64,000 nt of DNA, from positions 124,001 to 188,000 of the forward strand of contig NZ_LT629759.1 in NCBI RefSeq assembly GCF_900105025.1. Direction: 5' to 3'. The notes under the pieces were generated by a model that was not told where the DNA came from, did no database searches, and saw only the letters and a program-made list of their open reading frames with translations. Shown here piece after piece: positions 10,536-62,909 of this stretch (positions within the stretch are counted from its first letter, which is position 1; every line of letters starts with the position of its first letter). The stretch is from Parafannyhessea umbonata (lineage in GTDB: Bacteria > Actinomycetota > Coriobacteriia > Coriobacteriales > Atopobiaceae). A program made the translations under genes and the position numbers.

Positions 10536-10611
10536 GGGCGCTCCTTCCGCGTTGGGTGACGTGCTGTGGCGGGGGCGTGGCGGCCGTGGCCGCGGCGATT
10601 CTCGCCCACAA

Positions 10612-10642: not shown

Positions 10643-10681
10643 AAGGTGGCTCCTGTCAAAGTCGATTGCGAGGAGGAACAC

Positions 10682-12133
10682 ATGTCCAACGCTCTTGAGC
10701 GCGACCTCGACGCGCTGCGCATTGGCGCGGAGGGGGCGGCGAGGCACGGCCGATACGCGCAGGGGTTTCACCTGATGCCGCCCGTGGGCTGGCTGAACGA
10801 CCCGAACGGGCTGTGCCAGGTGGACGGGACGTTCCACGCGTTCTTTCAGTACTCACCGTTCAACGCGTCCGGCGGGGTGAAGATGTGGGGGCACTCCACG
10901 TCTGGCGACCTGCTGACGTGGGACTACCACGGCGTGACGCTCTTTCCGGACCAGCCGGCGGACTGCTCTGGCGTGTACTCCGGAAGCGCGCTCGTTCGCG
11001 AGGTGGACGGCCGGAGGCGGATGGAGCTGTTCTACACCGGCAACGTGAAGCTTGAGGACGCGGACGGCTACGACTACGTGCGCACCGGCCGCGAGGCGAA
11101 CACCGTGTGGGTGACGACGCAGGACGGCGACGCGCACGGGCCCAAGCGCGTGGTGATGACGAACGCGGACTACCCCACGGACGACACCTGCCACGTGCGC
11201 GACCCGAAGGTGTGGGAGAAGGACGGGCGCTACCTGATGGTGCAGGGTGCCCGCCGCGACGACGACTGGGGCGAGGTGCTGGTGTTTGGCTCCGACGACC
11301 TGGCGCACTGGGAGCTTATGAGCCGCGTGACCACGCCCACGCGCTTTGGCTACATGTGGGAGTGCCCGGACTACTTCGAGCTTTCCGACGGAGAGGGCGG
11401 GTCGGCCGAGGTGCTGGGCGTTTCTCCCCAGGGGCTTGAGGGCGGCGACTGGGAGCGCAGGAACGTGTACCAGTCCGGCTACTTCACGCTGGAGGGCGAT
11501 GTTACGGGCCGCTGCGAGCTGGGCGACTTTGCCCTGTGGGACGCCGGCTTCGACTTCTATGCGCCGCAGACGTTTGCCGCGGAGGACGGCCGACGCATAC
11601 TGATTGGCTGGATGGGGATCCCGGACGAGCCAACGTACGGAAACGACCCGACGGTCGCGGCGGGCTGGCAGCACTGCTTCACGCTGCCGCGCGAGGTGAC
11701 GCTTGCGGGCGGGCGCGTGAGGCAGGCCCCGGTGCGCGAGCTGGACGCGCGCCGCACGGACGAGGTTCGCTCTGTGGACGGCGTTCTGGACGTTGAGGGT
11801 CGCACGGCGTTTGACCTGGTGCTGGACGCGAGTGCCTGTACGAAAGACGTGCGCGTGACCCTGGCGGACGAGCTTGCGCTCACGTGGCGCGACGGCCGGC
11901 TGAGCATGGCGTTTGGACGCACGGAGCGCTCTGACGCCGGCTGCGGCCGCACGGAGCGCTGGGAGCCGCTGCCGGAGCTGCGGAACCTTCGCGTGGTGGG
12001 CGACGCGTCATCCGTGGAGGTGTTCGCGAACGACGGCGAGCTGTGCATGTCGACGCGCTACTATCCCGACCGCTATCGCGTGCAGGTGGACGCGCCCGGC
12101 GCTGACGCGACGCTTTGGGGTATTTCGGTCTAG
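10682..12133 (+). CDS. scrB: Sucrose-6-phosphate hydrolase (GH32)
   Basis: A 483-residue GH32 enzyme hydrolysing sucrose-6-phosphate to glucose-6-phosphate and fructose. It has the nucleophile motif WLNDPNG (Asp40), FFQYSPF, the transition-state stabiliser in CHVRDPKVW and the acid/base Glu in MWECPDYF. The C-terminal beta-sandwich runs from ~360 to the end (SSVEVFANDGELCMSTRYYP). The ATG is chosen by AGGAGGA five bases upstream. It is cytoplasmic (no signal peptide) and complements the PTS and fructokinase encoded on the other strand. Confidence 0.93.
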   Translation: MSNALERDLDALRIGAEGAARHGRYAQGFHLMPPVGWLNDPNGLCQVDGTFHAFFQYSPFNASGGVKMWGHSTSGDLLTWDYHGVTLFPDQPADCSGVYSGSALVREVDGRRRMELFYTGNVKLEDADGYDYVRTGREANTVWVTTQDGDAHGPKRVVMTNADYPTDDTCHVRDPKVWEKDGRYLMVQGARRDDDWGEVLVFGSDDLAHWELMSRVTTPTRFGYMWECPDYFELSDGEGGSAEVLGVSPQGLEGGDWERRNVYQSGYFTLEGDVTGRCELGDFALWDAGFDFYAPQTFAAEDGRRILIGWMGIPDEPTYGNDPTVAAGWQHCFTLPREVTLAGGRVRQAPVRELDARRTDEVRSVDGVLDVEGRTAFDLVLDASACTKDVRVTLADELALTWRDGRLSMAFGRTERSDAGCGRTERWEPLPELRNLRVVGDASSVEVFANDGELCMSTRYYPDRYRVQVDAPGADATLWGISV

Positions 12134-12183
12134 GCCATAGCGCGGCCCGCGGGGCCGCGGCGGCGAGGCAGGCGTGATAAAGG

Positions 12184-12221
12184 ACGGGCGAGAAGTGCGT
12201 GGGTGCGCTCTTCTCGCCCGT
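12184..12221. terminator. Bidirectional hairpin from an inverted pair of the dispersed motif
   Basis: 12-bp perfect arms, ACGGGCGAGAAG (12184-12195) and its complement (12210-12221), sit between the convergent scrB and TIM-barrel genes. The minus-strand side runs into CCTTTATC. The location and stem suggest a shared terminator. Confidence 0.65.
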
Positions 12222-12263
12222 TGGCGTATGAGGGGTGTGGGTGGCTTTGCGTGGCCCGCGGCG

Positions 12264-13091
12264 CTACTTGTCGCGATTGTTCCCGTGGCCCGGCTTGGCG
12301 TCGAGGTCTGCGTCCGCGCCGGCGTGCGTGCCGTGGAACAGCTCGAAGAAGTCGTGCACGGCATCGCGGCTTGTGTCCGACGTGCGGAAGTGGAACTCCG
12401 GGTTCTTGGTCTTGAGCTGGCGGTACTCCGCCATCATGTCGCCGAAGATGTGCGCGTTCGAGGGCGGCGTGTACACGATGGAGTTTGCGCCTGCCTGGAT
12501 GGTCTCTTGTATGGACTCGTCCGTGCGTCCGCCCGTGGCGATGATGGGCACGGCGGGGAAGTCCTTGCGGATGTTGCGCACGACCTGGGCCGTCTTGGCG
12601 CCGGCGGCGACGTTGAGGATGGTGACGCCGGCATCGAGGCGCGCCTGCACGTCCTCGTCGCCGGTGGCGATGGTCGCGATGATGGGGATGTCGATGACGC
12701 GGCGGATGAGGCGGATGTTGGAGTTGCTCATGGGGGAGTTCACGACCACGGCGAACGCGCCCTGGGCCTCTGCGTCCTGCGCGATGACGACGGAGCGCAT
12801 GCCGCGCGTGGTGCCGCCGCCGACGCCCACGAAGACGGGGCTGACCGCGGCGCTGATGACGGCCTGCGAGATGGCCTGCTGCGGCGTGAACGGGTAGACG
12901 GCGAGCACGGCGTCCGCGTTGCAGTTGCGGATGATGGCGACGTCCGTGGAGAAGACGATGGACTTGATGCGGCGCCCCATGATGACCATGCCCTTGGCCT
13001 GGTAGATGACGTCTGGGACCTGAATGGAGTGCGCTCGCAGCGTGCCGGTGATGCGTGGGACGTGGTCTTCGTCCTGGGTTGTGGTGACCAT
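12264..13091 (-). CDS. TIM-barrel protein of unknown function
   Basis: 275 residues with a clear (beta/alpha)8 rhythm and a C-terminal phosphate-binding loop (IIATGGRTDESIQETIQAGA then SIVYTPPS). Other segments are GVGGGTTRG, VVNSPMSN, IIATIATGDEDVQARLDAG and VAAGAKTAQVVRNI. Similar proteins in Firmicutes are often annotated only as 'hydrolase'; I cannot name a reaction. The last 25 residues are Gly/Asp/His-rich. The ATG has GAAGGGAAGG upstream. It is transcribed divergently from the glutaredoxin-like gene. Confidence 0.65.
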   Translation of the reverse strand: MVTTTQDEDHVPRITGTLRAHSIQVPDVIYQAKGMVIMGRRIKSIVFSTDVAIIRNCNADAVLAVYPFTPQQAISQAVISAAVSPVFVGVGGGTTRGMRSVVIAQDAEAQGAFAVVVNSPMSNSNIRLIRRVIDIPIIATIATGDEDVQARLDAGVTILNVAAGAKTAQVVRNIRKDFPAVPIIATGGRTDESIQETIQAGANSIVYTPPSNAHIFGDMMAEYRQLKTKNPEFHFRTSDTSRDAVHDFFELFHGTHAGADADLDAKPGHGNNRDK

Positions 13092-44943: not shown

Positions 44944-46026
44944 ATGCAAGAGGCATCCGCTGTCAGCGTGGCTACGCAGAAGAAGAGGGAGCTTGACTCC
45001 AGCTTCTTCAAGAAGGGCATCATGGTTGCCCTTTTCTCGAGTCTTATGTACGGCTTCTACACCGCGTTCGTAACCGCTGGCCAGAACTCGCAGCTCTGGG
45101 CCAGCTGGACCAGCGCACTCAACCCGACCGCCTTCCTCGCGGTCTTCATCATCCCCACCGTCGCGAGTGCAATCAACGACTCCTGCAGCGCCATCTGGGC
45201 CCTCGCCATCACCGCGAAGCAGGGCAAGCTCGGTGACTTCGGGCGCACCATCAACACGAAGCCCGGCATCATCCTGATGCTCTCCGCGCTCGTCGGCGGC
45301 CCCATCGCCACGGTCGCCTACATCATTGCCCTCTCCCAGGCGGGCACCATCGTCGTTCCCATCGCGGCGCTCAACCCCGCAATCGGCTCCATCCTCTCCC
45401 GCATCCTGTACAAGCAGGAGCTTGGTCCCCGCAAGCTTGCCGGCATCGGCATCTGCGTCCTTGCGGGCCTCATGATCGGTACTGCGAGCCTCACGGGCGA
45501 CTCCTCCTCCAACATGGTTCTCGGCCTCGCCCTCGCGTTCGTCGCGGCGCTCGGCTGGGGTGCGGAGGGATGCATCGCCGGCTACGCCTCCTGCATGATC
45601 GACACCCAGATCGGCATCACCATCCGCCAGTGCGTCTCCGGCCTGGTCGAGCTCGTCGTCGTCCTGCCGGTCCTGTCCCTCGTCGGCGGCGTCTCGCTCG
45701 GCCAGTCCTTCGGCTACGTGGGTGCGGCAATCACCGACCTCCCCACCATCCTCTGCTTCGTTGTCGCCGGCTTCTCCGCCTACAAGTCGTTCGCCAGCTG
45801 GTATCGCGGCAACTCCATGTGCGGCACCGCCCTCGGCATGGCCTGCAACGGCACGTACACCTTCGTCGCGCCGCTTGTCACCTGGGTCGTCGTCGGTCTG
45901 ATCATGGGTATCCCCGGCTATGCGCTTCCGCCAATCGCCTGGATAGCCGCCATCGTCATGATTCTCGGCATCGTCGTCATCGCGGTTGACCCCAAGGAGC
46001 TCTTTGGAAAGAAGGAGGAGGCATAA
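44944..46026 (+). CDS. DMT-superfamily transporter of the choline locus
   Basis: 360 residues with ten hydrophobic helices. GPIATVAYIIALSQAGTIVVPIAALNPAIGSILSRI and LGWGAEGCIAGYASCMID mark EamA-like repeats. Its position as first gene of the microcompartment locus and translational overlap (TAATG) with the next gene suggest it imports choline or exports a product such as trimethylamine; neither is shown by sequence. It differs from the EutH/BetT carriers usually expected for ethanolamine or choline. GGAGGG and GAAGG precede the ATG. Confidence 0.82.
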   Translation: MQEASAVSVATQKKRELDSSFFKKGIMVALFSSLMYGFYTAFVTAGQNSQLWASWTSALNPTAFLAVFIIPTVASAINDSCSAIWALAITAKQGKLGDFGRTINTKPGIILMLSALVGGPIATVAYIIALSQAGTIVVPIAALNPAIGSILSRILYKQELGPRKLAGIGICVLAGLMIGTASLTGDSSSNMVLGLALAFVAALGWGAEGCIAGYASCMIDTQIGITIRQCVSGLVELVVVLPVLSLVGGVSLGQSFGYVGAAITDLPTILCFVVAGFSAYKSFASWYRGNSMCGTALGMACNGTYTFVAPLVTWVVVGLIMGIPGYALPPIAWIAAIVMILGIVVIAVDPKELFGKKEEA

Positions 46027-46289
46027 TGCGCCCGCTCAACTACGCAATGCTCAAGTACTTCACGACGGTCGACGAGGCAAGCGTCGACGACGTGATGAGG
46101 GACCTCAAGGGTGACTACTCCACGTTCACGGCGTTCAAGCGCGACAGGATGCAGGAGGCTCTCATGACTGCCGAGAAGAACGGGCTCATCAGCGAGACCC
46201 GCGTCGATCTCGACGATAACGGCGAGCTCCGCGTGTTCTACGGCGCGGATGCCGAGCAGCGCGACACCATCAATTCCTACATCAAGTAA
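46026..46289 (+). CDS. Small helical protein of the cut locus
   Basis: 87 residues, charged and helix-rich (YAMLKYFTTVDEASVDDVMRD, FKRDRMQEALMTAEKNGLI), ending in a beta-hairpin-like DNGELRVFYG. The pattern recalls a winged-helix fold and may be a small regulator or adaptor. Its ATG overlaps the transporter stop by one base, so the two are translated together. I do not recognise a named family. Confidence 0.7.
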   Translation: MRPLNYAMLKYFTTVDEASVDDVMRDLKGDYSTFTAFKRDRMQEALMTAEKNGLISETRVDLDDNGELRVFYGADAEQRDTINSYIK

Positions 46290-46302
46290 AAGGGGGCTTG
46301 TC

Positions 46303-46602
46303 ATGCGCTACAGGGGAGAGGAGGCCATCGGCCTCATCGAGACCATCGGCATGGTCCCCGCGATCTACGCGGCCGACGCGATGCTTAAGGCCGGCGACAC
46401 CGAGCTCGTCAGCTACGAGAACGTCGGCTCCACGCTCGTCACCATCATCGTGAAGGGCGACGTCGCGGCATGCGAGGCCGCGGTCAAGGCCGGCAAGGAG
46501 GCTGCCTCCAGCATTGGCAAGCTCACCGCCGCAAATGTGATGAAGAGGCCCGTCCCGCCCATCGGCGACGTCGTCTCCGTCCACGACGTCGACTACAACT
46601 AG
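46303..46602 (+). CDS. BMC-H shell protein, early paralogue
   Basis: A 99-residue single-domain BMC-H protein forming a hexameric shell tile. It shows EAIGLIETIGMVPAIYAADAM, then LVTIIVKGDVAACEAAVKAG, the canonical strand/helix order. It differs clearly from the later near-identical BMC-H set and has a longer tail (PPIGDVVSVHDVDYN). The start at 46303 has AGGGGGC upstream. Confidence 0.88.
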   Translation: MRYRGEEAIGLIETIGMVPAIYAADAMLKAGDTELVSYENVGSTLVTIIVKGDVAACEAAVKAGKEAASSIGKLTAANVMKRPVPPIGDVVSVHDVDYN

Positions 46603-46613
46603 GAGGCTGGACC

Positions 46614-46925
46614 ATGGCAAGTGAGGGCATGAACGCGCTCGGCGCAATCGAGACCTTTGGCCTGGTATGGGTCCTCGAGGCCGGGGACGCCATGTGCAAG
46701 GCGGGAGACGTCGAGCTCATAGGCTACGAGAACACCGCCTCCGGATATATCTCCATCCTCGTCCAGGGCGACGTCGCGGCGTGCAAGGCCGCGGTCGAGG
46801 CCGGCGTGAAGGCTGTCGAGGCGCTCGGCGCGGAGGTCTACAGCTCCGTCGTCATCGCAAGGCCTCACCCCGATCTCAAGAAGATCACTGACAAGTACAC
46901 CGTCGAGAAGCTCCTGCCCTACTAG
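46614..46925 (+). CDS. BMC-H shell protein, second early paralogue
   Basis: 103 residues, BMC-H fold (ALGAIETFGLVWVLEAGDAM; ISILVQGDVAACKAAVEAG). The pore region (ENTASGYI) lacks the GGG of the other shell paralogues, so the hexamer pore is probably different. The C-terminal ~20 residues (HPDLKKITDKYTVEKLL) form an extra helix. It follows the previous BMC gene by 11 bases with AGGAGG. Confidence 0.88.
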   Translation: MASEGMNALGAIETFGLVWVLEAGDAMCKAGDVELIGYENTASGYISILVQGDVAACKAAVEAGVKAVEALGAEVYSSVVIARPHPDLKKITDKYTVEKLLPY

Positions 46926-46936
46926 GGAGGTGTCGA

Positions 46937-48472
46937 ATGTCTCTCATCGATAACGACCTTCTCTCGATTCAGGAGGCGCGCATTCTCCTGGAGCACGCGG
47001 CCGAATCCGCGGAGGTCCTCGAGGGGCTGCCGGCATCGCTGGTCGACGACTTCCTGACACACCTGCGCGAACGAATCCTGCCCAAGGCGCGCGAGTACGC
47101 TGAGGCGTCCTTTGCGGAGAGCGACTACTGCTCGCCCGAGGACGAGTCCGAGCTCACGAAGTGGGTCCTCGGAGACCTGTTGGACGACGTGCGAGCACAG
47201 ACTCCGGTGCAGAAGATCATCCGCTCGCGCAGAGGCTCCGCGGAGGTATGCCTTCCCAAGGGCGTGGTCGTGTCGCTGCTTCCGGATTGGCTTGCGGTTC
47301 CCACGATGCTCAGCCAGCTCTTCATGGCGGTGCACTCCAAGAGCCCGATCGTCTTCTCGGCTAGCGCCCGCATCCATGCGACGTGCGAGAAGGTCATGGG
47401 CGACGTGCTCCAGGTCGCGGAGTTCTGCCACTATCCCACGGAGGCGCTCGGCTTCCTTTCGATCTTCTGCCCCGAGGGCGAGGAGTGGGTCTGTTCGCAG
47501 CCGTGCGTCCGCGTGGTCATCGACTCCCGCGAGGAATCGAACGCCCACGACTTCGACGCTGCTGGCAGGGACGTGTACCACGCGACGCTGGGCAACAACC
47601 CGGTCTTCGTGGAGTCGACCGCGGACCTCTCCGCGTGCGCGGACGAGGTGGTCCTCGGCAAGTCGTTCTGCTACGGGATGCTTCCGGGCGCGGAGCAGAG
47701 CGTTGTCGTGGAGCGTGCCGTGGACGAGCGCTTCCAGGAGGAGCTTCGCCGGCGCGGGTGCTACTTCCTCACGGACGAGGAGGCGGACCGCCTTGTGGGG
47801 ACGCTCTTCATGCAGGACGGCAGCCCGTATCGCGAGCTCATCGCGAAGAGCGCCTTCGACCTCGCCCGTCGCGCCGACATAACGGTGCCCGAGAGCACGA
47901 GGGTGCTCGTCGTCGAAAAGCCCTACGTCAGCGAGTACAGCTTCTTCTCGAAGGCAAAGTTCGGCCCCGTCCTCTCGTACTACGTGGAAGAGAGCTGGCG
48001 TACGGCGTGCGAGAAGTGCATAGAGCTGATCCTCAACAGCGGTCACGGCAACGCGCTCTCGATCTTCTCAAAGGATCCCGAGGTAATCCGCCAATTCATC
48101 CTCAAGAAGCCCGTTGGCAGGGTCCTCGTGAACGTCAGCACCGGACTTGGTTGCATCGGCTGTCACAGCGACCTGCCGAAGACGCTCACGGTCACCGGAT
48201 GGGACTGCGCCACCACCTCGGAGCTCGGGGTCACCTACGGGGATTTCGTGCGCAGAAGGCAGGTGGGAGTCGGGGAAGGTCCCGACGCGCGGGCGCTGCT
48301 TGACAAGGCGAGCTCGTGCGACCACACGCCGGTCGCTGTGAGGGTTCGGATTCCGGACTCCGGGGGCGGGGAGAAGAGCCGTCCTGCGGGGCCGAGGGAT
48401 ACAGGCAAGGAGCCGGGGGACTGGTTCTCCGGCGTAGTACAGGCAATTCGTAACGATTCCGAAGAGGAGTGA
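46937..48472 (+). CDS. Aldehyde-dehydrogenase paralogue lacking the catalytic Cys
   Basis: 511 residues of the CoA-acylating aldehyde dehydrogenase superfamily. Its N-terminus ([20 protein letters not shown]) parallels that of the active paralogue at 56458 (DYDLQSIQAARDL). In the active-site block it reads [14 protein letters not shown], where the paralogue has KTFDNGTICASEQS: the nucleophile position is Pro250. A Cys at 245 is the nearest alternative. The Rossmann glycine segment is also degenerate. Pseudoenzyme or scaffold function is likely. The C-terminal ~70 residues form a disordered tail with GGGEKSRP (dispersed motif) and an amphipathic end ([12 protein letters not shown]) resembling an encapsulation peptide. 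The stop is 2 bases before cutC. Confidence 0.82.
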
Positions 48473-48474: not shown

Positions 48475-51018
48475 ATGGACATCAAGGAGTTTGCGAAGGA
48501 GCTGTCCGAGGCAACGAAGGACATGTCCGACGAGCAGCGCGCTACCGTCCGCAAGATGTTCGAGAAGGTGGCCGACCAGCTCGACGCGCCCGTCGCCTCC
48601 GCCCACGAGCACGTGAGCGACGATGAGCCCTACGACGTGCCCGACGGTCCCACCGACCGCCAGGTCCGCCTGAAGGAGAACTTCCTCAAGCAGGTGCCGA
48701 CGATCACCATGTTCCGTGCTCGTGCGGTCACCGAGCTCACGAAGGCCAATCCCGGCATGCCGAAGATCGAGCTTCGTGCCAAGGCGTTCCGTCGCTGCTG
48801 CGAGACCGCCCCGCTGGTCATCCAGGACGACGAGCTTGTCGTCGGAGCACCCTGCGGCGCACCTCGCGCCGGTGCGTTCTCGCCGGACCTCGCATGGCGT
48901 TGGCTTCGCGACGAGCTCGACACCATCGGTGACCGTCCGCAGGACCCGTTCTACATCTCGGAGGAGGACAAGCAGTACTGCCGCGACGTGCTGTTCCCGT
49001 TCTGGGAGGGCAAGTCCCAGGATGAGATCTGCGAGGACCAGTACCGCGAGGCAGGCGTCTGGGAGCTCTCCGGCGAGTCTTTCGTCTCCGACTGCTCCTA
49101 CCATGCCATGTCCGGCGGCGGTGACTCCAACCCCGGCTACGACGTCATCCTCATGAACAAGGGCATGCTCGACATCCAGGCCGAGGCGAAGCAGCACCTC
49201 GCGCAGCTTGACTATGCCAACCCCGACGACCTCGACAAGATCTACTTCTACAAGAGCGTGATCGACACCACCGAGGGCGTCATGATCTATGCGAAGCGCA
49301 TGAGCGACTACGCGGCGAAGCTCGCCGCCGAGTGCCACGACGCGAAGCGCAAGCACGAGCTCGAGCAGATCTCCACGATCCTCTCGCACGTCCCCGCCCA
49401 CAAGCCCAGCACGTTCTGGGAGGCCGTCCAGTCCGTCTTCGTCATCGAGAGCCTGCTCCCGGTGGAGGAGAACCAGACCGGCATGTCTCTCGGCCGCGTC
49501 GACCAGTACATGTATCCGTTCTACAAGGCAGACATCGAGGCCGGCCGCATCACGCCGTACCAGGCGTTCGACATCGCGGGCTGCATGCTCATCAAGATGT
49601 CCGAGATGATGTGGGTCACCTCCCGCGGCCAGTCCGAGTTCTTTGCCGGCTACCAGCCCTTCGTGAACATGACCCTCGGCGGCGTCACGCGTCAGGGCCA
49701 CGACGCGACGAACGATTTGACCTACCTTCTGATGGACGCCGTCCGTCACGTCAAGGTGTACCAGCCGTCCATCGCGTGCCGCATCAACAACAAGTCGCCC
49801 GAGAAGTACATGCGCAAGATCGTGGACATCGTCCGCTCCGGCATGGGCTTCCCCGCGTGTCACTTTGACGACACCCACATCAAGATGATGCTTGCCAAGG
49901 GCGTCAGCGTCGAGGACGCGCGCGACTACTGCATGATGGGCTGCGTCGAGCCCCAGAAGTCCGGCCGACTGTACCAGTGGACCTCCACGTCCTACACGCA
50001 GTGGCCCATCTGCATAGAGCTCACCCTCAACCACGGCATCCCCCTGTGGTACGGCAAGCAGGTAACCCCCGACCTGGGCGACCCGGAGCAGTACCACACC
50101 TACGAGGAGTTCGACGCCGCCGTCAAGAAGACCATCTACTACGTCACCAAGTGGACGGACGTCGCGACGGTCATCTCGCAGCGCGTCGCGCGTGACGTCG
50201 CCCCGAAGCCCCTCATGTCCATCATGTACGAGGGTTGCATGGAGCACGGCAAGGACGTCTCCGCCGGTGGCGCCATGTACAACTACGGCCCCGGCGTCGT
50301 CTGGACCGGCCTCGCCACCTACGCGGACTCCATGGCCGCCATCAAGAAGCTGGTCTTCGACGAGCACAAGTACACGCTCACGCAGATGTTCGATGCCATG
50401 AAGGCCGACTTCGAGGGCTACGACCAGCTGCGCAAGGACTGCCTCGACGCCCCGAAGTACGGAAACGACGACGACTACGCGGATGACATCGCAGCGGACA
50501 TCATCGACTACACCGAGCACATCCACCTGGACTTCAAGACGCTGTACTCCCACATGTCCACCGGAACGCTCTCCATCTCCAACAACACCCCGTTCGGCGA
50601 GATGACCGGCGCCACCGCGAACGGCCGCAAGGCTTGGACCCCGCTGTCCGATGGCATCAGCCCCACGCAGGGTGCGGACTTCCGCGGTCCCACCGCCATC
50701 ATCAAGTCCGTCTCGAAGCTCTCGAACGACTCGATGAACATCGGCATGGTCCACAACTTCAAGCTCATGAGCGGCTTGCTCGACACGCCCGAGGGCGAGA
50801 ACGGCCTCATCACCCTGCTGCGCACCGCCTCGATGTTCGGCAACGGCGAGATGCAGTTCAACTACCTCGACAACAAGACGCTCATCGACGCCCAGAAGCA
50901 TCCGGAGAACCACCGCGACCTCGTGGTCCGCGTCGCAGGCTACTCGGCGTTCTTCAACGAGCTGTGCAAGGACGTCCAGGACGAAATCATCAGCCGCACC
51001 ATGCTCAACAAGTTCTAG
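48475..51018 (+). CDS. cutC: Choline trimethylamine-lyase CutC
   Basis: An 847-residue glycyl radical enzyme splitting choline into trimethylamine and acetaldehyde. Key residues align with the characterised enzyme with an offset of one: Asp217 in [10 protein letters not shown], Cys490 and Glu492 in MMGCVEPQ, and Gly822 in RVAGYSAFF. The GCVEP motif and choline-pocket Asp separate it from glycerol dehydratase, isethionate lyase and pyruvate formate-lyase. The N-terminal ~40 residues are a charged helix that may target the enzyme into the shell. GAGGAG precedes the ATG by 5 bases. It needs oxygen-free conditions and CutD for activation. Confidence 0.95.
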
Positions 51019-51090
51019 GCAACAAGAACCGTAATCGGAAGACCAGAGGAGTGCCACGCCGTGGTACGCGAAAAGAAGGGAGAGGCTGCA

Positions 51091-52035
51091 ATGAGCCGCG
51101 AGCAGAGTGGTGTTGAGCGCAAGGCGCGCATCTTCAACCTTCAGAAGTACAACATGTACGACGGCCCCGGCGTGCGCTCCATGGCCTTCCTCAAGGGCTG
51201 CCCCCTCCGCTGCAAATGGTGCTCGAACCCCGAGAGCCAGCATCGCGGGCACGAGGTCATGTTCAAGCGTGCGAACTGCGTCGACTGCGGGGCATGCGTC
51301 GCGGTCTGCCCCGTCGGCGTCCACAAGATGGCGGACGGGGAGCACGTCGTCGACCGCGACGTCCAGTGCATCGGCTGCCGCAGGTGCGAGAAGGCCTGCA
51401 TGTACCATGCGCTTGAGGTCATGGGGGAGGACCGCTCCATCGACGACATCATGGACTTCCTGGACGAGGACGCCGACTTCTACCGCATGTCCGGGGGCGG
51501 CATCACGCTCTCCGGGGGAGAAGTGCTGGCACAGCCGGAGGCAACCCTTTCCATCCTGATGGCGGCGAAGGCCCATGGCTACCACACGGCCATCGAGACC
51601 TGCGGTTACGCACCGACGCCGACCATCATGAGGGTCGCGCAGTACGTCGATCTGTTCCTGTTCGACATCAAGCAGATGGACCCCGTGAAGCACAAGTTTT
51701 GGACGGGCGTGAACAACGAGCAGATCCTGTGCAACGTCAAGGAGCTCCTGGAGAACGGATACAACGTCCGCGTCCGCATGCCCCTGCTCAAGGGCGTGAA
51801 CGACTCCAAGGAAGAGATCGACGCGGTCATCGCGTACTTCAAGCCGTATCGCTACCAGAAGAACTTCGACGGCGTCGACCTGCTTCCCTACCACAAGCTC
51901 GGCGTCGGCAAGTACGCGTCGCTCGGTCGTGACTACGAGATCAAGGACGACCCGTCGCTCAGCGACGACGACCTCAACAGGATCGAGGGCTGGATCAAGG
52001 GCGCCGACTTCAAGGTGAGCCTGGTCAGGCACTAG
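51091..52035 (+). CDS. cutD: CutC-activating radical SAM enzyme CutD
   Basis: A 314-residue glycyl-radical-enzyme activase. The SAM cluster motif is CPLRCKWC, a ferredoxin insert carries CVDCGACVAVCP and CIGCRRCEKAC, and the SAM-binding region contains SGGGITLSGGEVL. It installs the radical on Gly822 of CutC using SAM and a reduced 4Fe-4S cluster. The start at 51091 is set by AAGGGAGAGG; an upstream in-frame GTG at 51061 is less likely. Its position immediately after cutC is the standard pairing. Confidence 0.94.
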   Translation: MSREQSGVERKARIFNLQKYNMYDGPGVRSMAFLKGCPLRCKWCSNPESQHRGHEVMFKRANCVDCGACVAVCPVGVHKMADGEHVVDRDVQCIGCRRCEKACMYHALEVMGEDRSIDDIMDFLDEDADFYRMSGGGITLSGGEVLAQPEATLSILMAAKAHGYHTAIETCGYAPTPTIMRVAQYVDLFLFDIKQMDPVKHKFWTGVNNEQILCNVKELLENGYNVRVRMPLLKGVNDSKEEIDAVIAYFKPYRYQKNFDGVDLLPYHKLGVGKYASLGRDYEIKDDPSLSDDDLNRIEGWIKGADFKVSLVRH

Positions 52036-52089: not shown

Positions 52090-52713
52090 ATGCACTACGT
52101 CACCGAGGACGAGCTGCGCGAGGCATACGGGACGTGCCCGTTCGAAAAGTACAAGCTTCCCGAGGACGCGCGCCTCACGCCAAGCGCAAGGCAGTTCCTG
52201 ATTGACTTCAGGATCGAGTTCGAGGGCGACGAACGGGGACCGAAACCCCACGGTGAGGCGCGTGGCATTCACGGCGGCCCGCATCGCGAGCCGACGGTGG
52301 ATCTGGGTGCGCTGGTCTTCGACGCGAACCTCCTCGGCGCCCGCCTGAGGCTGCTCGCCCGTAGGGCGCTCGGCGTGGACAACACCGTCGCGCGCCGTAC
52401 GGAGAGGGTCGGCCGTCTGTGGCAGGAGGCGCGGAGCGCTTCCGACCTCGTCACGGCCGACGGTCATGCCGACCCGGCCGGAGGTCCGCCGGGCCCGACG
52501 CCCGTCCCGACCTTCGATGCGGGCATACATCCGGTCTTCTTCGAGATGGCAAGCGTTCATGCCCAGATAGGTCGGTACGCCCGCTCCTGGGCGAGGGCGA
52601 AGGAGAGTCTGGGACCCGACGAGGCGAGGGTCGTCTCGGCGTGGGTCAGTGAGGCGACGACGGTGTGCGAACTGCTCGAAGAGGCAATTTCCAATGCGGA
52701 AGAGGAGGTGTAG
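52090..52713 (+). CDS. EutT-like protein in the choline locus
   Basis: 207 residues. The N-terminus (LPEDARLTPSARQFLIDFRI) strongly resembles EutT, the corrinoid adenosyltransferase of ethanolamine microcompartments. The C-terminal half is helical (HPVFFEMASVHAQIGRYARSW). Since CutC needs no B12, a corrinoid role would be unexpected here; it may be repurposed for structure or cofactor binding. The N-terminal similarity could also reflect a shared targeting segment. GAGGAGG precedes the start. The following eutJ start lies 3 bases after its stop. Confidence 0.6.
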   Translation: MHYVTEDELREAYGTCPFEKYKLPEDARLTPSARQFLIDFRIEFEGDERGPKPHGEARGIHGGPHREPTVDLGALVFDANLLGARLRLLARRALGVDNTVARRTERVGRLWQEARSASDLVTADGHADPAGGPPGPTPVPTFDAGIHPVFFEMASVHAQIGRYARSWARAKESLGPDEARVVSAWVSEATTVCELLEEAISNAEEEV

Positions 52714-52716: not shown

Positions 52717-53565
52717 ATGGTCGACCTTAAGAAGGCGAACGGCAGGCTCGAGGATCTCTTGGACTGCGTGGACCATCCCAGGAAGGTGAGGGAGGGGCAG
52801 CGGCTCTACTGCGGCCTCGACCTGGGCACGGCCTTCATCGTCCTCGTCGTCCTGGACGAGGACGGAAACCCCGTCGACTGCAAGTACCAGTTCGCAAGTG
52901 TCGTGAAGGACGGCATGGTCGTCGACTACGTGGGCGCCTGCGACATCGCGAGGCGGCTGAAGGATCAGATCGAGGGTGAGCTTGGCGTAGAGCTCGAGGA
53001 GTGCGCGGTCGCCATCCCACCCGAGACCGAGGCGCTTGACGGCGGCGTGGTGAAGAACGTGGCCGAGAGCACGGGCATGGAGTGCATCGCGGTATTTGAC
53101 GAGCCCACTGCCGCGAACCTCCTCATCGGCACCACCGACGGCGCGGTCGTCGACATCGGTGGCGGCACGACCGGCATCTCCGTCTTCAAGGACGGCAAGG
53201 TAGTGGAGTGCATCGACGAGTCGACCGGAGGGACGCACTTCTCGCTCGTGCTTGCCGGCGCGAAGGGAATGTCGTTCGACGACGCGGAGGTCTACAAGCG
53301 CAACCCCGAGCACCACAGGGAGGTCCTTCCCATTGTGTCGCCGACGATTGACAAGGTGACCACGATCATCGAGCGCGCGTGTCGCGACTACGAGGTGCCG
53401 GAGGTCATCCTGGTCGGCGGAACGGCCGAGCTTACAGGCATCGAGGGCAGGGTGCAGAAGCGTCTGGGCATCGAGGTCCACAAGCCGAGCCATCCCATGT
53501 TCGTAACGCCGATGGGCATCGCGCTCGGATGCGTCCAGAAGGCGAGGGCGCGCGACGATGCTTGA
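52717..53565 (+). CDS. eutJ: EutJ-type microcompartment chaperone-like ATPase
   Basis: A 282-residue protein of the Hsp70/actin-like ATPase fold. Phosphate-1 is YCGLDLGTAFIVLVVLDEDG, phosphate-2 is GAVVDIGGGTTGISV, and the adenosine loop is VILVGGTAELTGI, with VFDEPTAANLL between. EutJ-type proteins are proposed to help fold or load microcompartment enzymes. RBS GAGGAGG precedes the ATG. It overlaps the next gene by 8 bases. Confidence 0.9.
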   Translation: MVDLKKANGRLEDLLDCVDHPRKVREGQRLYCGLDLGTAFIVLVVLDEDGNPVDCKYQFASVVKDGMVVDYVGACDIARRLKDQIEGELGVELEECAVAIPPETEALDGGVVKNVAESTGMECIAVFDEPTAANLLIGTTDGAVVDIGGGTTGISVFKDGKVVECIDESTGGTHFSLVLAGAKGMSFDDAEVYKRNPEHHREVLPIVSPTIDKVTTIIERACRDYEVPEVILVGGTAELTGIEGRVQKRLGIEVHKPSHPMFVTPMGIALGCVQKARARDDA

Positions 53566-53863
53566 CGTGAAGGTCATCAAGGCCCCGGCGCCTGGGACCA
53601 TGCAGATCATCAGGCAGCGAAGCGGCGCCCGCTGGGGCGAGGACTTCAGGCCGGCGGCGGTCGGGCTCGTCCAGGGCAAGCTGATCGAGATGGTGGTCGC
53701 GAGCGACATCGCCGAGAAGACCGCGGGCGTTGTCGTGACCGACGTGAGAGGGTCCTGTCCCCAGAACATGGTGATGCTCGCCATAGCTGGGGAGACGGCA
53801 GAGGTGATGGAGTGCCTCCGGAAGATCCAGGACGGAAAGGACGCGTCCCATGATTGTCGGTAG
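53558..53863 (+). CDS. Divergent BMC-domain protein
   Basis: 101 residues with a BMC-like core (AAVGLVQGKLIEMVVASDIAEK then VVVTDVRGSCPQN and AIAGETAEVMECLRKI), but with a different N-terminal strand (KAPAPGTMQIIRQRSG) and none of the typical pore sequence. It may be a specialised shell tile or a linker between shell and cargo. It overlaps both neighbours (8 and 14 bases), so the three are co-translated. Confidence 0.72.
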   Translation: MLDVKVIKAPAPGTMQIIRQRSGARWGEDFRPAAVGLVQGKLIEMVVASDIAEKTAGVVVTDVRGSCPQNMVMLAIAGETAEVMECLRKIQDGKDASHDCR

Positions 53864-54119
53864 GCTCATCGGCTCGATCTGGGCCACCCGCAAGTACGAC
53901 GAGCTGAACGGGATGAAGCTCATGCGCGTCGAGGTCATCACGGGCGACGAGGCAGGAAAGCAGCTCATCTGCGTCGATACCATCAGCGCGGGGGTGGGAG
54001 ACCGGGTGATCGTGACCACGGGATCTTCCGCATATCACTTCGTGAAGGACGAGTTCCAGAAGAACGCACCGGTAGACGCGGTGATCGTAGGAATCATAGA
54101 CGAAGACGTGAATCTGTAA
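53850..54119 (+). CDS. eutN: EutN/CcmL-type BMC-P vertex protein
   Basis: 89 residues. It has MIVGRLIGSIWATRKYDELNG, then LICVDTISAGVGDRVIVTTGSSA and VDAVIVGIID, the complete pentamer fold that caps the 12 vertices of the microcompartment. It is the only vertex protein in the window. Confidence 0.93.
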   Translation: MIVGRLIGSIWATRKYDELNGMKLMRVEVITGDEAGKQLICVDTISAGVGDRVIVTTGSSAYHFVKDEFQKNAPVDAVIVGIIDEDVNL

Positions 54120-54134
54120 GGAAAGGAGGACGAC

Positions 54135-55058
54135 ATGAAGAGACTTGTAAGCGCGAAGGACGTCATCGCGGCGGCGGCACGGCACGAGGACATCTACGTG
54201 GACGAGAACACCATCGTGACCGCCCAGGCGAAAGACGTTGCGCGGGAGAACGGCGTGAGCATCACGTGCGGCCCGAAGCCCGAGGGGCATGCGGCATGCG
54301 AGAAGCCCGCGGCTAAACACGCTGCGGTTGAGTGCCACAAGGTTGACCTCACCAGCGAGGGCAAGGGCACCGAGCCCGCCCTTACCGCGGCCGAGCTCGA
54401 GCATCTTATAGCCGCCGCCTTCGAGAAGGGCATCTGGACCAAGGACGACATCGAGTCGCTCTTGGGGAAGAAAGAGTCGGCCATCGACCCGAACATCGTT
54501 CCGGTGGGGGTGTCTGGCCGTCACATCCACCTGTCCCAGCACGACCTTGAGACGCTGTTTGGCAAGGGTTACGAGCTGACAAAGGTGAAGGACCTCAGCC
54601 AGCCCGGTCAGTTCGCGGCAAAGGAGTGCGTCACCCTCGCGGGCCCGAAGGGCGTCATCCAGAAGGTGCGCGTGCTTGGCCCCGTTCGCTCTCAGACCCA
54701 GGTGGAGGTGCTCGCGGGCGACACGTTCAAGTTGGGCGTTGCGCAGGAGATCCGCCTCTCGGGACACCTCGAGGGAACTCCTGGCATTACCGTCATCGGC
54801 CCGAAGGGGACGGTCGTCCTCCCCGAGGGCGTGATGGTGGCAGCCCGCCACATCCACATGAGTCCGTCGCAGGCAGCGGAGCGCGGCTTCCACGACGGTC
54901 AGGTTGTGTCGCTCAAAATCTGCGGAGAGCGTGGCGGCATGCTCGACAACGTGATCGTGCGCGTCACCGAGACCGGAAACCTTGACTGTCACATAGACAC
55001 GGAAGAGGCAAACGCGTTTCACCTCAAGACGGGCTCAAAGGTCCAGGTAGTTAGGTAG
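54135..55058 (+). CDS. pduL: Phosphate acyltransferase PduL with N-terminal extension
   Basis: 307 residues. The catalytic PduL domain (~120-307) carries the metal-binding motifs VSGRHIHLSQ and AARHIHMSP and the FAAKECVTLAGPKG segment. It converts acetyl-CoA and phosphate to acetyl-phosphate, regenerating CoA inside the shell. Residues 1-~45 (RLVSAKDVIAAAARHEDIYVD) resemble the N-terminus of EutQ-type proteins and likely target the enzyme; a Cys/His-bearing linker follows. GGAAAGGAGG precedes the ATG. Confidence 0.9.
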   Translation: MKRLVSAKDVIAAAARHEDIYVDENTIVTAQAKDVARENGVSITCGPKPEGHAACEKPAAKHAAVECHKVDLTSEGKGTEPALTAAELEHLIAAAFEKGIWTKDDIESLLGKKESAIDPNIVPVGVSGRHIHLSQHDLETLFGKGYELTKVKDLSQPGQFAAKECVTLAGPKGVIQKVRVLGPVRSQTQVEVLAGDTFKLGVAQEIRLSGHLEGTPGITVIGPKGTVVLPEGVMVAARHIHMSPSQAAERGFHDGQVVSLKICGERGGMLDNVIVRVTETGNLDCHIDTEEANAFHLKTGSKVQVVR

Positions 55059-56457: not shown

Positions 56458-58113
56458 ATGCAGGAATTCGATTACGATCTTCAGAGCATCCAGGCCGCCC
56501 GCGACCTTGCGCGCAAGGGCCAGGTTGCCGCGAACCAGATTGCAAACTACAGCGTCGAGCAGATCGACCGCATCCTTCGCGCCATGGTCGAGGTTGCCGA
56601 GAAGAACGCGAAGCAGCTTGCCGAGATGGCCGTCGAGGAGACGACCTTCGGCAACGTCCACGACAAGATCTACAAGAACCATATGGCCTCCGGCCTGCTT
56701 TACGAGCAGATCAAGGACGCGAAGACCATCGGCGTCATCGATGTGGACGAGAAGAAGCAGGTCATCACGATAGCGGAGCCGGTCGGTCTTGTGATGGGCA
56801 TCGTCCCCTCCACCAACCCCACCTCGACGGTGCTCTACAAGTCGATGATCGCGCTTAAGTCTCGCAACGCCATCGTCTTCTCCCCGCACCCGAAGGCCGC
56901 CAAGTGCACGAACCTTGCCATCAAGCTCATGAATGACGCCGCCGTTGCCGCGGGAGCCCCCGAGAACGTCATTCAGGGCGTGAGCCTGGCGACGATTGCC
57001 GCGACGAACGAGCTCATGCACGCGCCCGAGGTCAAGATGATCATCGCGACCGGTGGTCCCGGCATGGTGAAGGCAGCCTACAGCTCCGGCAAGCCCGCGC
57101 TGGGCGTCGGCGCCGGCAACTCGCCCTCGTACATCGAGCGCACCGCGAACGTGCATGACGCGGTTCGCCAGATCATGGCGTCCAAGACGTTCGACAACGG
57201 CACCATCTGCGCCTCCGAGCAGAGCGTCATCTGCGAGACCTGCAACCACGACGAGGTCGTCGCGGAGTTCAAGAGCCAGGGCGGCTACTTCATGTCGGAG
57301 GAGGAGTGCAAGAAGGTCTGCAAGATCCTGTTCCGCAACGGCCACTCCATGAGTCCAAACTTCGTGGGCCACGCCGCCCTCGACATCGCAAAGGCTGCCG
57401 GCATCTGCGTCCCCGCAGACACGAAGGTGCTCATCGGCGAGCAGCATGGCGTCGGTCCCGAGTGGCCGCTCTCTTACGAGAAGCTCACGACCGTCCTGGG
57501 CTTCTACACCGTCGCCGACTGGCATGAGGCGTGCGACCTGTCCATCGCGCTGCTCCAGAACGGCATCGGCCACACGATGAACATCCACACGGAGGACAAG
57601 GAGATCGTCCGCAAGTTCTCCGTCAAGCCCGCCTCGCGCATCCTCATCAACACCGGCGGAACCCAGGGTGGCACCGGCCTCTCCACGGGTCTGGACGTCG
57701 CGCTGACCCTTGGCTGCGGCACCTGGGGCGGAAGCTCCGTTTCCGAGAACGTTGGTCCGCAGCACCTCATCAACGTGAAGCGCGTCGCCAACGGCATCAT
57801 CGAGCCGGACATGGTCGCCGCCGCCGACGAGACGTTCGCGAAGTGGCACCCTGAGCTCGCGGCCGAGTACGGCTGCACGTCGCACGCGACCTGCGGCTGC
57901 GCCGCGACGTCCTGCGGCGAGAGCGCCAAGAGCGACCTGGGAATCGACATGCCCGTGGGTCACGGCGTAAGCGGCATCAGCTACTCCGTCGGCTGCAACA
58001 GCTGCGGTGGTCACGCGGAGCCGGAGTCGCAGGAGCGCAAGGGCGACACCATCGACGCGGCCGAGCTCAAGAAGATGGTCAACGAGCTGGTGGCCGCTTT
58101 CCGCGGCGAGTAG
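56458..58113 (+). CDS. CoA-acylating acetaldehyde dehydrogenase (active form)
   Basis: A 551-residue enzyme converting acetaldehyde, CoA and NAD+ to acetyl-CoA inside the shell. Catalytic Cys251 lies in FDNGTICASEQS. Other segments are VMGIVPSTNPTSTVLYKSM, IIATGGPGMVKAAYSSGKPALGVGAGN and NTGGTQGGTG. The C-terminal ~70 residues contain a Cys-rich segment (YGCTSHATCGCAATSC; VGCNSCGG) that could bind metal or Fe-S, and end in an amphipathic helix (DAAELKKMVNELVAAF) typical of encapsulation peptides. It corresponds to the aldehyde dehydrogenase of characterised cut clusters. Confidence 0.9.
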   Translation: MQEFDYDLQSIQAARDLARKGQVAANQIANYSVEQIDRILRAMVEVAEKNAKQLAEMAVEETTFGNVHDKIYKNHMASGLLYEQIKDAKTIGVIDVDEKKQVITIAEPVGLVMGIVPSTNPTSTVLYKSMIALKSRNAIVFSPHPKAAKCTNLAIKLMNDAAVAAGAPENVIQGVSLATIAATNELMHAPEVKMIIATGGPGMVKAAYSSGKPALGVGAGNSPSYIERTANVHDAVRQIMASKTFDNGTICASEQSVICETCNHDEVVAEFKSQGGYFMSEEECKKVCKILFRNGHSMSPNFVGHAALDIAKAAGICVPADTKVLIGEQHGVGPEWPLSYEKLTTVLGFYTVADWHEACDLSIALLQNGIGHTMNIHTEDKEIVRKFSVKPASRILINTGGTQGGTGLSTGLDVALTLGCGTWGGSSVSENVGPQHLINVKRVANGIIEPDMVAAADETFAKWHPELAAEYGCTSHATCGCAATSCGESAKSDLGIDMPVGHGVSGISYSVGCNSCGGHAEPESQERKGDTIDAAELKKMVNELVAAFRGE

Positions 58114-59290: not shown

Positions 59291-60232
59291 ATGAGGGGCA
59301 TGGAGCTGGCCAAGAGGTACTTCGGGACGTTCGGCCCCGTGCTCGTGTCCGGGCTTCCGTACTCCGTCGAGTCGCGCCTCGCCTTTGGTCTCGTCGGGCC
59401 GGGCTCGGAGTGCCTGGGCTTCGACGACGACATCTCGCGCGACCACGACTTCGGTCCCGGGTTCTGCGTGTGGGTCCCAGCCGACCTGTGGGATACATAC
59501 GGCAGCGAGCTCGCGCGCAGGTACGCGACGTTGCCGGGCGAGTTTCTGGGCGAGAGGCGCAAGGAGAGCGAGCTCGCGGGCCAGCGCGTGGGCGTGTTCT
59601 GCACGGAGTCGTTCTACCGCACGTACACGGGGCTCGGGCGCGTCCCGCAGGGCGTGGCCGAGTGGCTGCGAATTCCCGAGCAGCTGCTTGCCATCGTGTG
59701 CGGCGGCGAGGTCTTTCGGGACCCAAGCGGCCAGTTCACACGTGTGCGCGAGGCGTACCAGGGCTTCTACCCCGAGCTCGTCGTGCGCAAGAAGCTGGCT
59801 GCGGACATGGCGGTCATGGCGCAGTCTGGCCAGTACAACCTGGGTCGCTGCCTCGTGCGGCGCGACCTCGTCGCGGCGGACGTGGCGCGCGGGGAGTTCC
59901 TGTGCGCCACCATGGCAGCGCTGCACCTGCTTTCGCGCACGTACATGCCGTTCTACAAGTGGTCGTTCAGGTCGCTTCGCGAGAGCGCGCACGTGCCGGC
60001 GCCCGTCTGCGACGTGGTGCGCAGGATCGCGGAGGCCCCCGTCGCAAAGGTTTCTTGTGAAGACGTGGAACTACTGTGCTCGGTCGTTCTGCGTGCCGCT
60101 CTTGCGCTAGGCTGGGCTGCTTCGGAGTCGGACTTCCTTCTGGACGCGGCCACGTCCATGTGGAGGGGGATTCCGAACGAGTATCTCCGCAGCCGTCCGT
60201 TGAACGAGGGGGCGTTTTCCCATGGCATGTAG
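59291..60232 (+). CDS. DUF4037 protein (nucleotidyltransferase-like)
   Basis: 313 residues. The signature segment LGFDDDISRDHDFGPGF resembles a nucleotidyltransferase core (acidic residues after a glycine turn), followed by VWVPADLWDTYG and a long helical C-domain (RKKLAADMAVMAQSGQYNLGRCL; FYKWSFRSLRE). The function is unknown; it may nucleotidylylate a small molecule or protein. RBS AGGCGAGG precedes the ATG. It overlaps the next gene by 11 bases. Confidence 0.8.
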   Translation: MRGMELAKRYFGTFGPVLVSGLPYSVESRLAFGLVGPGSECLGFDDDISRDHDFGPGFCVWVPADLWDTYGSELARRYATLPGEFLGERRKESELAGQRVGVFCTESFYRTYTGLGRVPQGVAEWLRIPEQLLAIVCGGEVFRDPSGQFTRVREAYQGFYPELVVRKKLAADMAVMAQSGQYNLGRCLVRRDLVAADVARGEFLCATMAALHLLSRTYMPFYKWSFRSLRESAHVPAPVCDVVRRIAEAPVAKVSCEDVELLCSVVLRAALALGWAASESDFLLDAATSMWRGIPNEYLRSRPLNEGAFSHGM

Positions 60233-60959
60233 CAGGTGCGGGTGCGCCGCGTGCGCCGGAACCGGTGACGCGAGGAGACCGTCGTACGGCCGCAGGCTCG
60301 AGCGCCGCGGCGACGTGAAGAGGTTCTTCTCTCTTTCGGCCGTGCAGGGCATCGCGGCGGAGCGCGGCGTAAGGGGAGACCTGCTCGAGGAGCTCGAGCG
60401 TGTCGTCGCCTTGGAGTGGGAGCAGTTCGACGCCGTCCTTGGCTTACATGGCCGAGCGGGCTGCCAGGATGACCTCAGGCGCTTCTCGGCGTATCGCTGC
60501 GCACAGTACCTCGCGTTTCCCCACGGGCTCATACCGCGGGTGCTCGCGGAGCTCGAGCAGGCGGAGCTCAGCGGCAGGAACCTGGTGGAGGAGAAGTACG
60601 CGCGCATGATGGCCGCGACCGATTCCTCTGAGTTCAACAGGACGTGGGCGAACGCCTTGCCCTTGACATCACCCGTGAAGAGGGGCGCCCTCCGCCAGCT
60701 GCGCAAGCTGCTGGCGCCTGTGCTTGCGCAGGCGGCGCGCGAGCTTCCCCAGGCACACCGCCATGCGCGTCCGGACGTGTCGTCGGCCGGCACGGTCTCG
60801 GCGCTGGACTACTTTCTGGCGGAGCTCGAGGGCTACTCGCTTTCGACGATCTTCTACCTTCGTGACGAGCTTGCGCGTCCGGGGACCGGGGCGAACCCGA
60901 TTGAGTCGAGTTACGTTCTGGCCGCGAGGCTTCTTGAGGCAACGGAGGTTGGTGCATGA
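60222..60959 (+). CDS. DUF4125 protein with N-terminal Cys motif
   Basis: 245 residues. The body matches DUF4125: EWEQFDAVLGLHGRAGCQDD, LSGRNLVEEKYARMM and SALDYFLAELEGYSLSTI. The first 11 residues (MACSRCGCAAC) form a CxxCxCxxC cluster suited to zinc or Fe-S binding. It is encoded in overlap with DUF4037 (11 bases) and with the MerR gene (ATGA), indicating tight co-translation. The function is unknown. Confidence 0.8.
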   Translation: MACSRCGCAACAGTGDARRPSYGRRLERRGDVKRFFSLSAVQGIAAERGVRGDLLEELERVVALEWEQFDAVLGLHGRAGCQDDLRRFSAYRCAQYLAFPHGLIPRVLAELEQAELSGRNLVEEKYARMMAATDSSEFNRTWANALPLTSPVKRGALRQLRKLLAPVLAQAARELPQAHRHARPDVSSAGTVSALDYFLAELEGYSLSTIFYLRDELARPGTGANPIESSYVLAARLLEATEVGA

Positions 60960-61817: not shown

Positions 61818-62909
61818 ATGAACCAGTTCTCTCTCAAGGCAAAGCTGTTCTTCGGCCCGCAGGCGGTGGAGCACCTTTCTTCCCTTGCGTGTACTAACGT
61901 TCTCGTTGTGACGGACGGCTTTCTGCAGGAGTCCGGCATGGTCAGCAAGATGACACAGTATCTGCCGTCCGGTGCGCACGTGAGCGTGTATTCCAACGTG
62001 CGTCCCGATCCCAGCCAGGAGCTGGTGGACGCCGGCGTCGAGATGATCTTCGGTGTCAAGCCCGACGTGGTCATCGCGTTCGGAGGCGGCTCCTGCATCG
62101 ACGCGACGAAGGCCATCCTGTACTTTGCGGGACAGAAGGGCCTCGCCCACCCGTACTTCCTGGCCATTCCGACGACGGCCGGCACCGGCTCCGAGGTCAC
62201 GAACTTCGCGGTCATTACGCGCGGCGACACGAAGGTCGCCCTCATCGACGACGCGCTCGCGCCGGACGGGGCGCTCCTGGATGCCAGCTTCACGCGCTCC
62301 GTCCCACCCAAGATCACGGCCGACACCGGCATGGACGTCCTGACGCACGCCCTCGAGGCCTACGTGAGCAACCAGGCGACCACCTTCACGGACGCGCTTG
62401 CCGTCAAGGCGCTGCGCGTCGTGTTCGAGGACCTTCCCGTCGTCTTCCACGATGGCGACGCCATGCGCGCACGCGGCCGCATGGCCGAGGCCTCATGCGT
62501 GGCGGGTATCGCGTTCACCAACGCCGGGCTCGGCATCAACCACAGCCTGGCGCACGCCCTTGGTGGTCGCTTCCACGTTGCCCATGGCAGGCTGAACGCC
62601 ATTCTGCTGCCGTACGTGATGCGCTTCCACATGGCTGACTCAAAGTATCGCGAGCCGTACGAGCGCTGCGCCCGCGAGCTTGGCATGGCGGACGCGGAGG
62701 ACCTGCTGCGCCACGTGATTGACCTGCGAGCCGAGCTGGGGGTCGAGGATCGTCTGGCAGACCTTGGCAGCATCGACGCCAGCGCGTTCGAGGAGCACGT
62801 GGGCGACATGGCCGAGGCCGCGCTTGGCGACCGCTGCACCCCGACGAATCCCCGTCCCGTCTCGCGGCAGGACCTCGTCAACCTCTATCGCGATGCCTAC
62901 AACGGCTAG
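61818..62909 (+). CDS. Iron-containing alcohol dehydrogenase (ethanol-forming)
   Basis: A 363-residue group III alcohol dehydrogenase like EutG/CutO. The cofactor motif is VVIAFGGGSCIDATKA, with IPTTAGTGSEVTNFAVI. The Fe ligands come from TGMDVLTHALEAY, GINHSLAHALGGRFHVAHG. It reduces acetaldehyde to ethanol, recycling NADH made by the aldehyde dehydrogenase. The ATG follows the regulator by 4 bases, with GGAGTAAAAAG upstream. Confidence 0.9.
   Translation: MNQFSLKAKLFFGPQAVEHLSSLACTNVLVVTDGFLQESGMVSKMTQYLPSGAHVSVYSNVRPDPSQELVDAGVEMIFGVKPDVVIAFGGGSCIDATKAILYFAGQKGLAHPYFLAIPTTAGTGSEVTNFAVITRGDTKVALIDDALAPDGALLDASFTRSVPPKITADTGMDVLTHALEAYVSNQATTFTDALAVKALRVVFEDLPVVFHDGDAMRARGRMAEASCVAGIAFTNAGLGINHSLAHALGGRFHVAHGRLNAILLPYVMRFHMADSKYREPYERCARELGMADAEDLLRHVIDLRAELGVEDRLADLGSIDASAFEEHVGDMAEAALGDRCTPTNPRPVSRQDLVNLYRDAYNG

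Follow-up and report, generated by a model that had tools for sequence, protein, structure and literature searches.

A maintained aldehyde dehydrogenase pseudoenzyme accompanies choline trimethylamine-lyase in GRM1 loci and is a probable assembly part of the microcompartment core

Results and Discussion

The gene directly upstream of cutC in a choline-utilisation locus of Parafannyhessea umbonata codes for an acylating aldehyde dehydrogenase (ALDH) homologue that has lost its nucleophilic cysteine together with several other catalytic residues. Given the replacement of these residues, the purifying selection on the gene and its linkage to cutC in the same 14 genomes, we consider this protein, CutB, to be a maintained pseudoenzyme, most likely a non-catalytic assembly part of the core of the GRM1 microcompartment (probability roughly 0.6). 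GRM1 compartments convert choline to trimethylamine in gut bacteria. A dead enzyme that strictly accompanies the choline lyase would be a specific and testable part of their assembly.

Dead aldehyde dehydrogenases have been reported from GRM1 loci since 2014. Axen et al. (2014, PMC4207490) describe a replacement of Cys by Ser or Pro in one of the enzymes of all GRM1 loci that carry two, and suggest a role as scaffold or regulator for the copy without Cys. Sutter et al. (2021, PMC8217296) apply the label "putatively inactive second copy" in both GRM1A and GRM1B, and Olsenella uli is named in the published GRM1 set (PMC4207490, PMC8217296). The cutB gene described here is a member of this group, with the same locus type, the same substitution class (Pro) and no essential difference. 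The loss of other catalytic residues and a count of the linkage to cutC are absent from the relevant passages of Axen et al. and Sutter et al., and our search of the open-access literature found no paper giving the function of the dead GRM1 enzyme. To this we add the loss of other catalytic residues, an Enterococcus form in partial decay, the linkage to cutC, a CutB-specific cysteine and a possible parallel with GRM2 loci.

Organization of the choline locus

The window, meaning the whole stretch of 64,000 nucleotides analysed (contig NZ_LT629759.1, positions 124,001 to 188,000), contains a GRM1 choline-utilisation microcompartment locus with all named genes on the forward strand (Table 1). The choline-lyase glycyl radical enzyme (GRE), its activating enzyme and BMC shell genes are all present, and cutB, the second aldehyde dehydrogenase gene, is accompanied by an intact one, cutF, about 8 kb away. 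An EamA-like transporter (below the Pfam cut-off) and a conserved protein of unknown function lie upstream of the first two BMC genes, which are followed in order by cutB, cutC, cutD, an unknown gene and eutJ. Then come a weakly matching BMC gene, genes for EutN/CcmL and a PduL-type phosphotransacylase, and a trio of BMC genes that closely resemble one another, the first of which was run against Pfam. These are followed by cutF and one more BMC gene and, further on, by a MerR regulator and an iron-containing alcohol dehydrogenase. The cutC product scored 1641.7 bits against a cut-off of 1050, and its likely ATG start is separated by two bases from the cutB stop. The ATG of cutB itself is preceded by GGGAGG.

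Table 1 Features of the cutB gene and its surroundings, in window coordinates.
Feature	Position	Strand	Evidence or remark
BMC shell protein upstream of cutB	46249..46602	+	PF00936; ORF as listed, true start perhaps further in
BMC shell protein directly upstream of cutB	46614..46925	+	PF00936, scan from 46539; ORF opens at 46470, start putative
cutB, catalytically dead acylating ALDH homologue, 511 aa	46937..48472	+	TIGR02518 below cut-off, homology, model
Leu119 at oxyanion-hole Asn position (CutF Asn120)	47291..47293	+	L in 13/13
Asp196-Ser-Arg-Glu199 replacing Ala-Thr-Gly-Gly	47522..47533	+	D, S, R, E each in 13/13; putative cofactor-loop region
Cys245, proposed alternative nucleophile, codon TGC	47669..47671	+	C in 13/13 Coriobacteriia
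Pro250, codon CCG, at catalytic Cys position (CutF Cys251)	47684..47686	+	alignment
Ala340 at catalytic Glu position (CutF Glu341)	47954..47956	+	putative equivalent of Cphy1178 E357
Cys358-x-x-Cys361	48008..48019	+	Cys361 CutB-specific in this sample
Asn372-Ala373 at catalytic His-Thr position	48050..48055	+	N-A in 13/13
C-terminal 13-residue segment after variable linker	48422..48460	+	candidate encapsulation peptide
cutC, choline trimethylamine-lyase, 847 aa, short (GRM1) form	48475..51018	+	TIGR04394
cutD, activating enzyme	51061..52035	+	TIGR04395, 543.8 bits
eutJ, weakly matching BMC gene, EutN/CcmL and PduL-type phosphotransacylase genes	52717..55058	+	Pfam/NCBIfam profile matches
cutF, active-type acetylating acetaldehyde dehydrogenase, 551 aa, Cys251	56458..58113	+	TIGR02518, 707.9 bits, cut-off 620.1
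Iron-containing alcohol dehydrogenase	61818..62909	+	putative CutO-like role

Loss of catalytic residues

The first-pass annotation of this DNA had called cutB a pseudo-aldehyde dehydrogenase on the ground that Pro stands where the active paralogue has its nucleophile, and the alignment with CutF indeed places Pro250 opposite Cys251. It had also asked whether the Pro is fixed among homologues. Pro was found in all 13 distinct orthologues from Coriobacteriia, and the single orthologue examined from Enterococcus raffinosus has it too, whereas Cys occupies this column in all 12 active-type rows of the alignment (seven CutF, including that of the window, one Enterococcus CutF, three EutE-like proteins and one AdhE). 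A sequencing error at this codon is thereby ruled out.

The replacements extend beyond Cys to several further catalytic residues (Table 1), which strongly supports the view of CutB as a pseudo-dehydrogenase. The catalytic roles of Cys, Asn, His and Glu in acylating ALDHs have been described (PMC4762007, PMC5311937), and we mapped them onto CutB and CutF by conserved columns and spacing; the distance from Asn to Cys is 131 residues in both Cphy1178 and CutF, and that from Glu to His is 30 and 31. The oxyanion Asn, the Ala-Thr-Gly-Gly stretch, the catalytic Glu and the His-Thr pair are each present in 12/12 active-type rows. At the Glu column the Coriobacteriia proteins have Ala in 12 cases and Thr in one. 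The Enterococcus CutB has lost the Cys and the Glu (here also Ala) and kept the Asn, the His-Thr pair and one Gly, with Asn-Ile-Gly-Ser in place of Ala-Thr-Gly-Gly; judging by these residues, it looks as if it were at an earlier stage of decay. More broadly, 125 columns are invariant in the active-type rows (one residue throughout, counting rows without a gap, of which there had to be 11 or more among the 12). The 13 Coriobacteriia proteins keep 37 of these fully and lose 66 fully, and 26 of the 125 survive in the Enterococcus CutB as well as in all 13.

Fold and C-terminal tail

The first-pass annotation also held that the fold is conserved, and homology and modelling agree with this. CutB matches PDB entry 3k9d in a phmmer search (E 1.3e-50), and the best structural matches of its AlphaFold model (pLDDT 74.5, pTM 0.77) are acylating ALDHs, with a Z of 45.7 and an rmsd of 2.9 over 440 residues for 3k9d and a Z of 44.3 for 5j78. 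Since 8 of the 15 rows in the alignment behind the model are active-type ALDHs, the model leans towards the ALDH fold and is not independent of the family; an earlier model from an 8-row alignment was poor (pLDDT 47). The likeness of CutB to EutE/CutF-type acetylating dehydrogenases (TIGR02518; 3k9d, 5j78) is thus one of fold, over residues 4-450. Apart from this fold, the Cys, oxyanion Asn, His-Thr and Glu of an active acetylating dehydrogenase are missing, the TIGR02518 score of 214 bits falls short of the cut-off of 620.1, and identity to CutF is only about 26%.

A C-terminal encapsulation peptide is general among type I aldehyde dehydrogenases (PMC8217296), and a possible encapsulation helix had been noted in the tail of CutB. 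Beyond residue 445 the tail is variable, with a mean majority fraction of 0.49 for residues 446-490, and residues 491-508 are more conserved (0.64; core 0.85). W496 and F497 are invariant in 13/13 CutB, and a terminal helix is predicted, at low confidence, for residues 497-508 in the AlphaFold model. Amphipathicity, however, exceeded that of shuffled tails at the 5% level in only 2/13 CutB rows, in a weak test that only 3/7 CutF tails pass (best-window moment, 500 shuffles, reached by 5 to 265 of them across the 13 rows; a pass is under 25). Amphipathicity therefore cannot serve as proof of encapsulation, and the helix is best regarded as a proposal.

Conservation and linkage to cutC

We searched 396 genomes of the class with CutB and found a match in 17 of them. 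Fourteen carry orthologues (62-100% identity), corresponding to 13 distinct proteins once exact duplicates are dropped. The nearest record bearing a name was that of Parafannyhessea umbonata strain 105184, 99% identical over CutB. The other three (L025, L026, L027) were counted as active-type, as they keep the Cys and are 48-52% identical to CutF. A tail-only sequence (L011) was left out of the alignment, and one further protein (L012) and one near-identical CutF were left out of the tree. In this tree, built without the nucleophile columns, all 13 CutB rows fall on one side of a branch with support of 100/99.5, which fits a single origin as judged from these sequences; the tree tool warns of long branches, that of the Enterococcus CutB among them.

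The cutB gene is under purifying selection. Median dN/dS (NG86) was 0.157 for cutB, 0.140 for cutF and 0.104 for both cutC and cutD, from 14 of 20 usable pairs per gene, the other six being dropped for a dS that was undefined or at least 3; the near-identical pair of the window and L004 had been excluded beforehand. Together with the full-length open frames, the value for cutB rules out a decaying pseudogene.

Linkage to cutC is strict in this class. A cutC match above the cut-off was present in 14 of the 396 genomes, exactly those with cutB, and in 14/14 the two genes are neighbours on the same strand. The interval from the cutB match to the cutC profile match is 180-188 bases in 13 genomes and 305 in one; about 180 bases of this interval belong to the CutC N-terminus, which the profile does not cover. 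A phylum search for CutC at E 1e-250 returned 2 of 396 genomes, namely that of the window and another from the same order. A fifteenth genome (G157) has only a broken cutC and no cutB match. In an Olsenella sp. metagenome-assembled genome (L011, positions 10001-12410), a cutC homologue spread across three frames is preceded by the last 22 codons of cutB, and no cutF was found in the 20 kb of this record. This decayed locus could reflect real decay or a fault of the metagenome assembly, and L011 and G157 are probably the same or near relatives, sharing the same 457-residue cutC frame. The first-pass annotation had named CutC as a possible structural partner of CutB; the adjacency in 14/14 genomes and the 22-codon remnant at a broken cutC speak for this only indirectly. 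One genome (G366) encodes another CutC-like glycyl radical enzyme (L048, positions 3101-5332, minus strand; 1167.1 bits, above the cut-off of 1050), which lies some 12 kb past the main cutC, and has a single cutB match.

A partly decayed CutB on an Enterococcus plasmid

A GRM1 choline locus was found on a 985-kb plasmid of E. raffinosus (L028, NZ_CP081847.1), with the same order of two BMC genes, cutB, cutC and cutD as in the window; its CutB orthologue is 31% identical to ours. CutB-like matches of at least 95% identity were present on five E. raffinosus records, all five of which also carry cutC; the Pro was checked in L028. A search of viral contigs with the Enterococcus CutB gave no match, and among the phage and plasmid matches listed (the best 5 of 14 for phages, the best 15 of 122 and 40 of 167 for plasmids) CutB-like places occurred only in E. 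raffinosus. The other listed matches were classed as active-type ALDH or AdhE by their identity and annotation, with the sequence checked for Klebsiella and Proteus. The sample consisted of two CutB lineages, Coriobacteriia and, on a plasmid, Enterococcus, and the published Ser variants did not appear in it.

Comparison with GRM2 loci

A difference in CutC length between GRM1 and GRM2 is published (PMC5026066). GRM2 CutC has an extra N-terminal GRE-like domain without catalytic residues (PMC6325248), and Klebsiella CutC requires its N-terminal domain to carry CutF into shells (PMC6971018). In the three GRM2 loci that we compared (25-27 kb each), CutC is extended (open frames of 1165 aa in Klebsiella and 1149 aa in Proteus, a gene of 3387 bases in E. 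coli R6), and one ALDH and no cutB were found. The ALDH has the Cys in Klebsiella, where in the record used it is covered by an open frame only from about residue 100 onward, and in Proteus; that of E. coli was judged by annotation. One record that starts inside cutC (L051) was left out. In eight GRM1 loci (the window, L004, L006-L010 and E. raffinosus), the homology of CutC begins at the short-form N-terminus and cutB is present; the CutC open frames span 846-871 aa, apart from one of 1047 aa in L008, where the frame runs on upstream.

CutB and the N-terminal domain of GRM2 CutC (Klebsiella; PMC6971018, PMC6325248) are alike in being non-catalytic copies of a pathway enzyme. They differ in that the GRM2 domain has a glycyl radical enzyme fold, unrelated to ALDH, and is fused to CutC, whereas CutB is a separate protein. 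The parallel points to an assembly role for CutB. By analogy, and as a tentative idea that we hold to be rather doubtful, each system might use a dead copy of one of its own enzymes as a core linker for the same job. If so, GRM1 CutB would bring CutF to CutC, and the two linkers would be interchangeable and mutually exclusive solutions.

Possible functions of CutB

In the assembly role that we propose, CutB, which has the fold of an acylating aldehyde dehydrogenase and lacks the nucleophile that forms the thioacyl-enzyme, would bind CutC and/or pair with CutF, the active dehydrogenase. Acetaldehyde would then be made beside the enzyme that consumes it. We infer its presence in the compartment, its binding to CutC or CutF and the targeting to the shell by its tail. 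Several observations argue against an assembly role. Price et al. (2014, PMC4215793) place Dde_3283, numbered next to the Desulfovibrio alaskensis CutC gene Dde_3282, among acetaldehyde-conversion genes and so treat it as active, and a figure legend in PMC6620236 puts CutB with CoA-acylating aldehyde dehydrogenases, both proteins being known here by description rather than sequence. In the Enterococcus protein the Asn, the His-Thr pair and one Gly survive, the tail exceeds shuffles in 2/13 rows, the lineages sampled are two, and the tree carries the long-branch warning. That CutB is still an active dehydrogenase, as its annotation elsewhere and the assignment of Dde_3283 to the pathway (PMC4215793) would have it, is nevertheless highly improbable with the nucleophile, oxyanion Asn, His and Glu missing at the aligned positions. 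In favour of the proposed role, the ALDH gene beside GRE1 in C. ljungdahlii, whichever residue it has at the catalytic position, is induced by choline (log2 7.2 ± 0.9; PMC12016505).

Among other non-catalytic roles, CutB might be the regulatory subunit of a mixed CutB-CutF tetramer, where it would adjust the activity of CutF instead of acting as a scaffold for the core. One microcompartment ALDH, Cphy1178, forms tetramers (PMC4762007) and the fold of CutB is intact in the model, but cutB adjoins cutC and lies about 8 kb from cutF, and the low identity of the two proteins also speaks against pairing; we regard this as possible though doubtful. A sensor or holder that binds CoA, NAD(H) or acetaldehyde without turnover would agree with the kept fold and the 26 residues common to both lineages, and is unlikely given that the Coriobacteriia proteins have other residues in place of the Thr-Gly-Gly loop and the Glu. 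The first-pass annotation had further raised a different chemistry through Cys245, to which the Cys358-x-x-Cys361 pair may be added. Cys245 is invariant in Coriobacteriia, and Cys361 is found in 13/13 Coriobacteriia and in the Enterococcus CutB, with Ala or Ser in all 12 active-type rows; Cys358 also occurs in active forms other than AdhE. However, the Cys245 column is Asp in the Enterococcus CutB and in 12/12 active-type rows, which argues against a new chemistry common to CutB and leaves the suggestion weak; with two lineages sampled, we consider such chemistry quite improbable.

Other proteins of the locus

Two proteins of the locus (52090-52713 and 46026-46289) had no Pfam or NCBIfam match at E 0.001. 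Genes annotated as "hypothetical protein" occupy the matching places in E. raffinosus, a correspondence of position alone. Between the region of the last BMC gene and the MerR regulator lie genes for a DUF4037 protein (59291-60232) and a DUF4125 protein (60222-60959).
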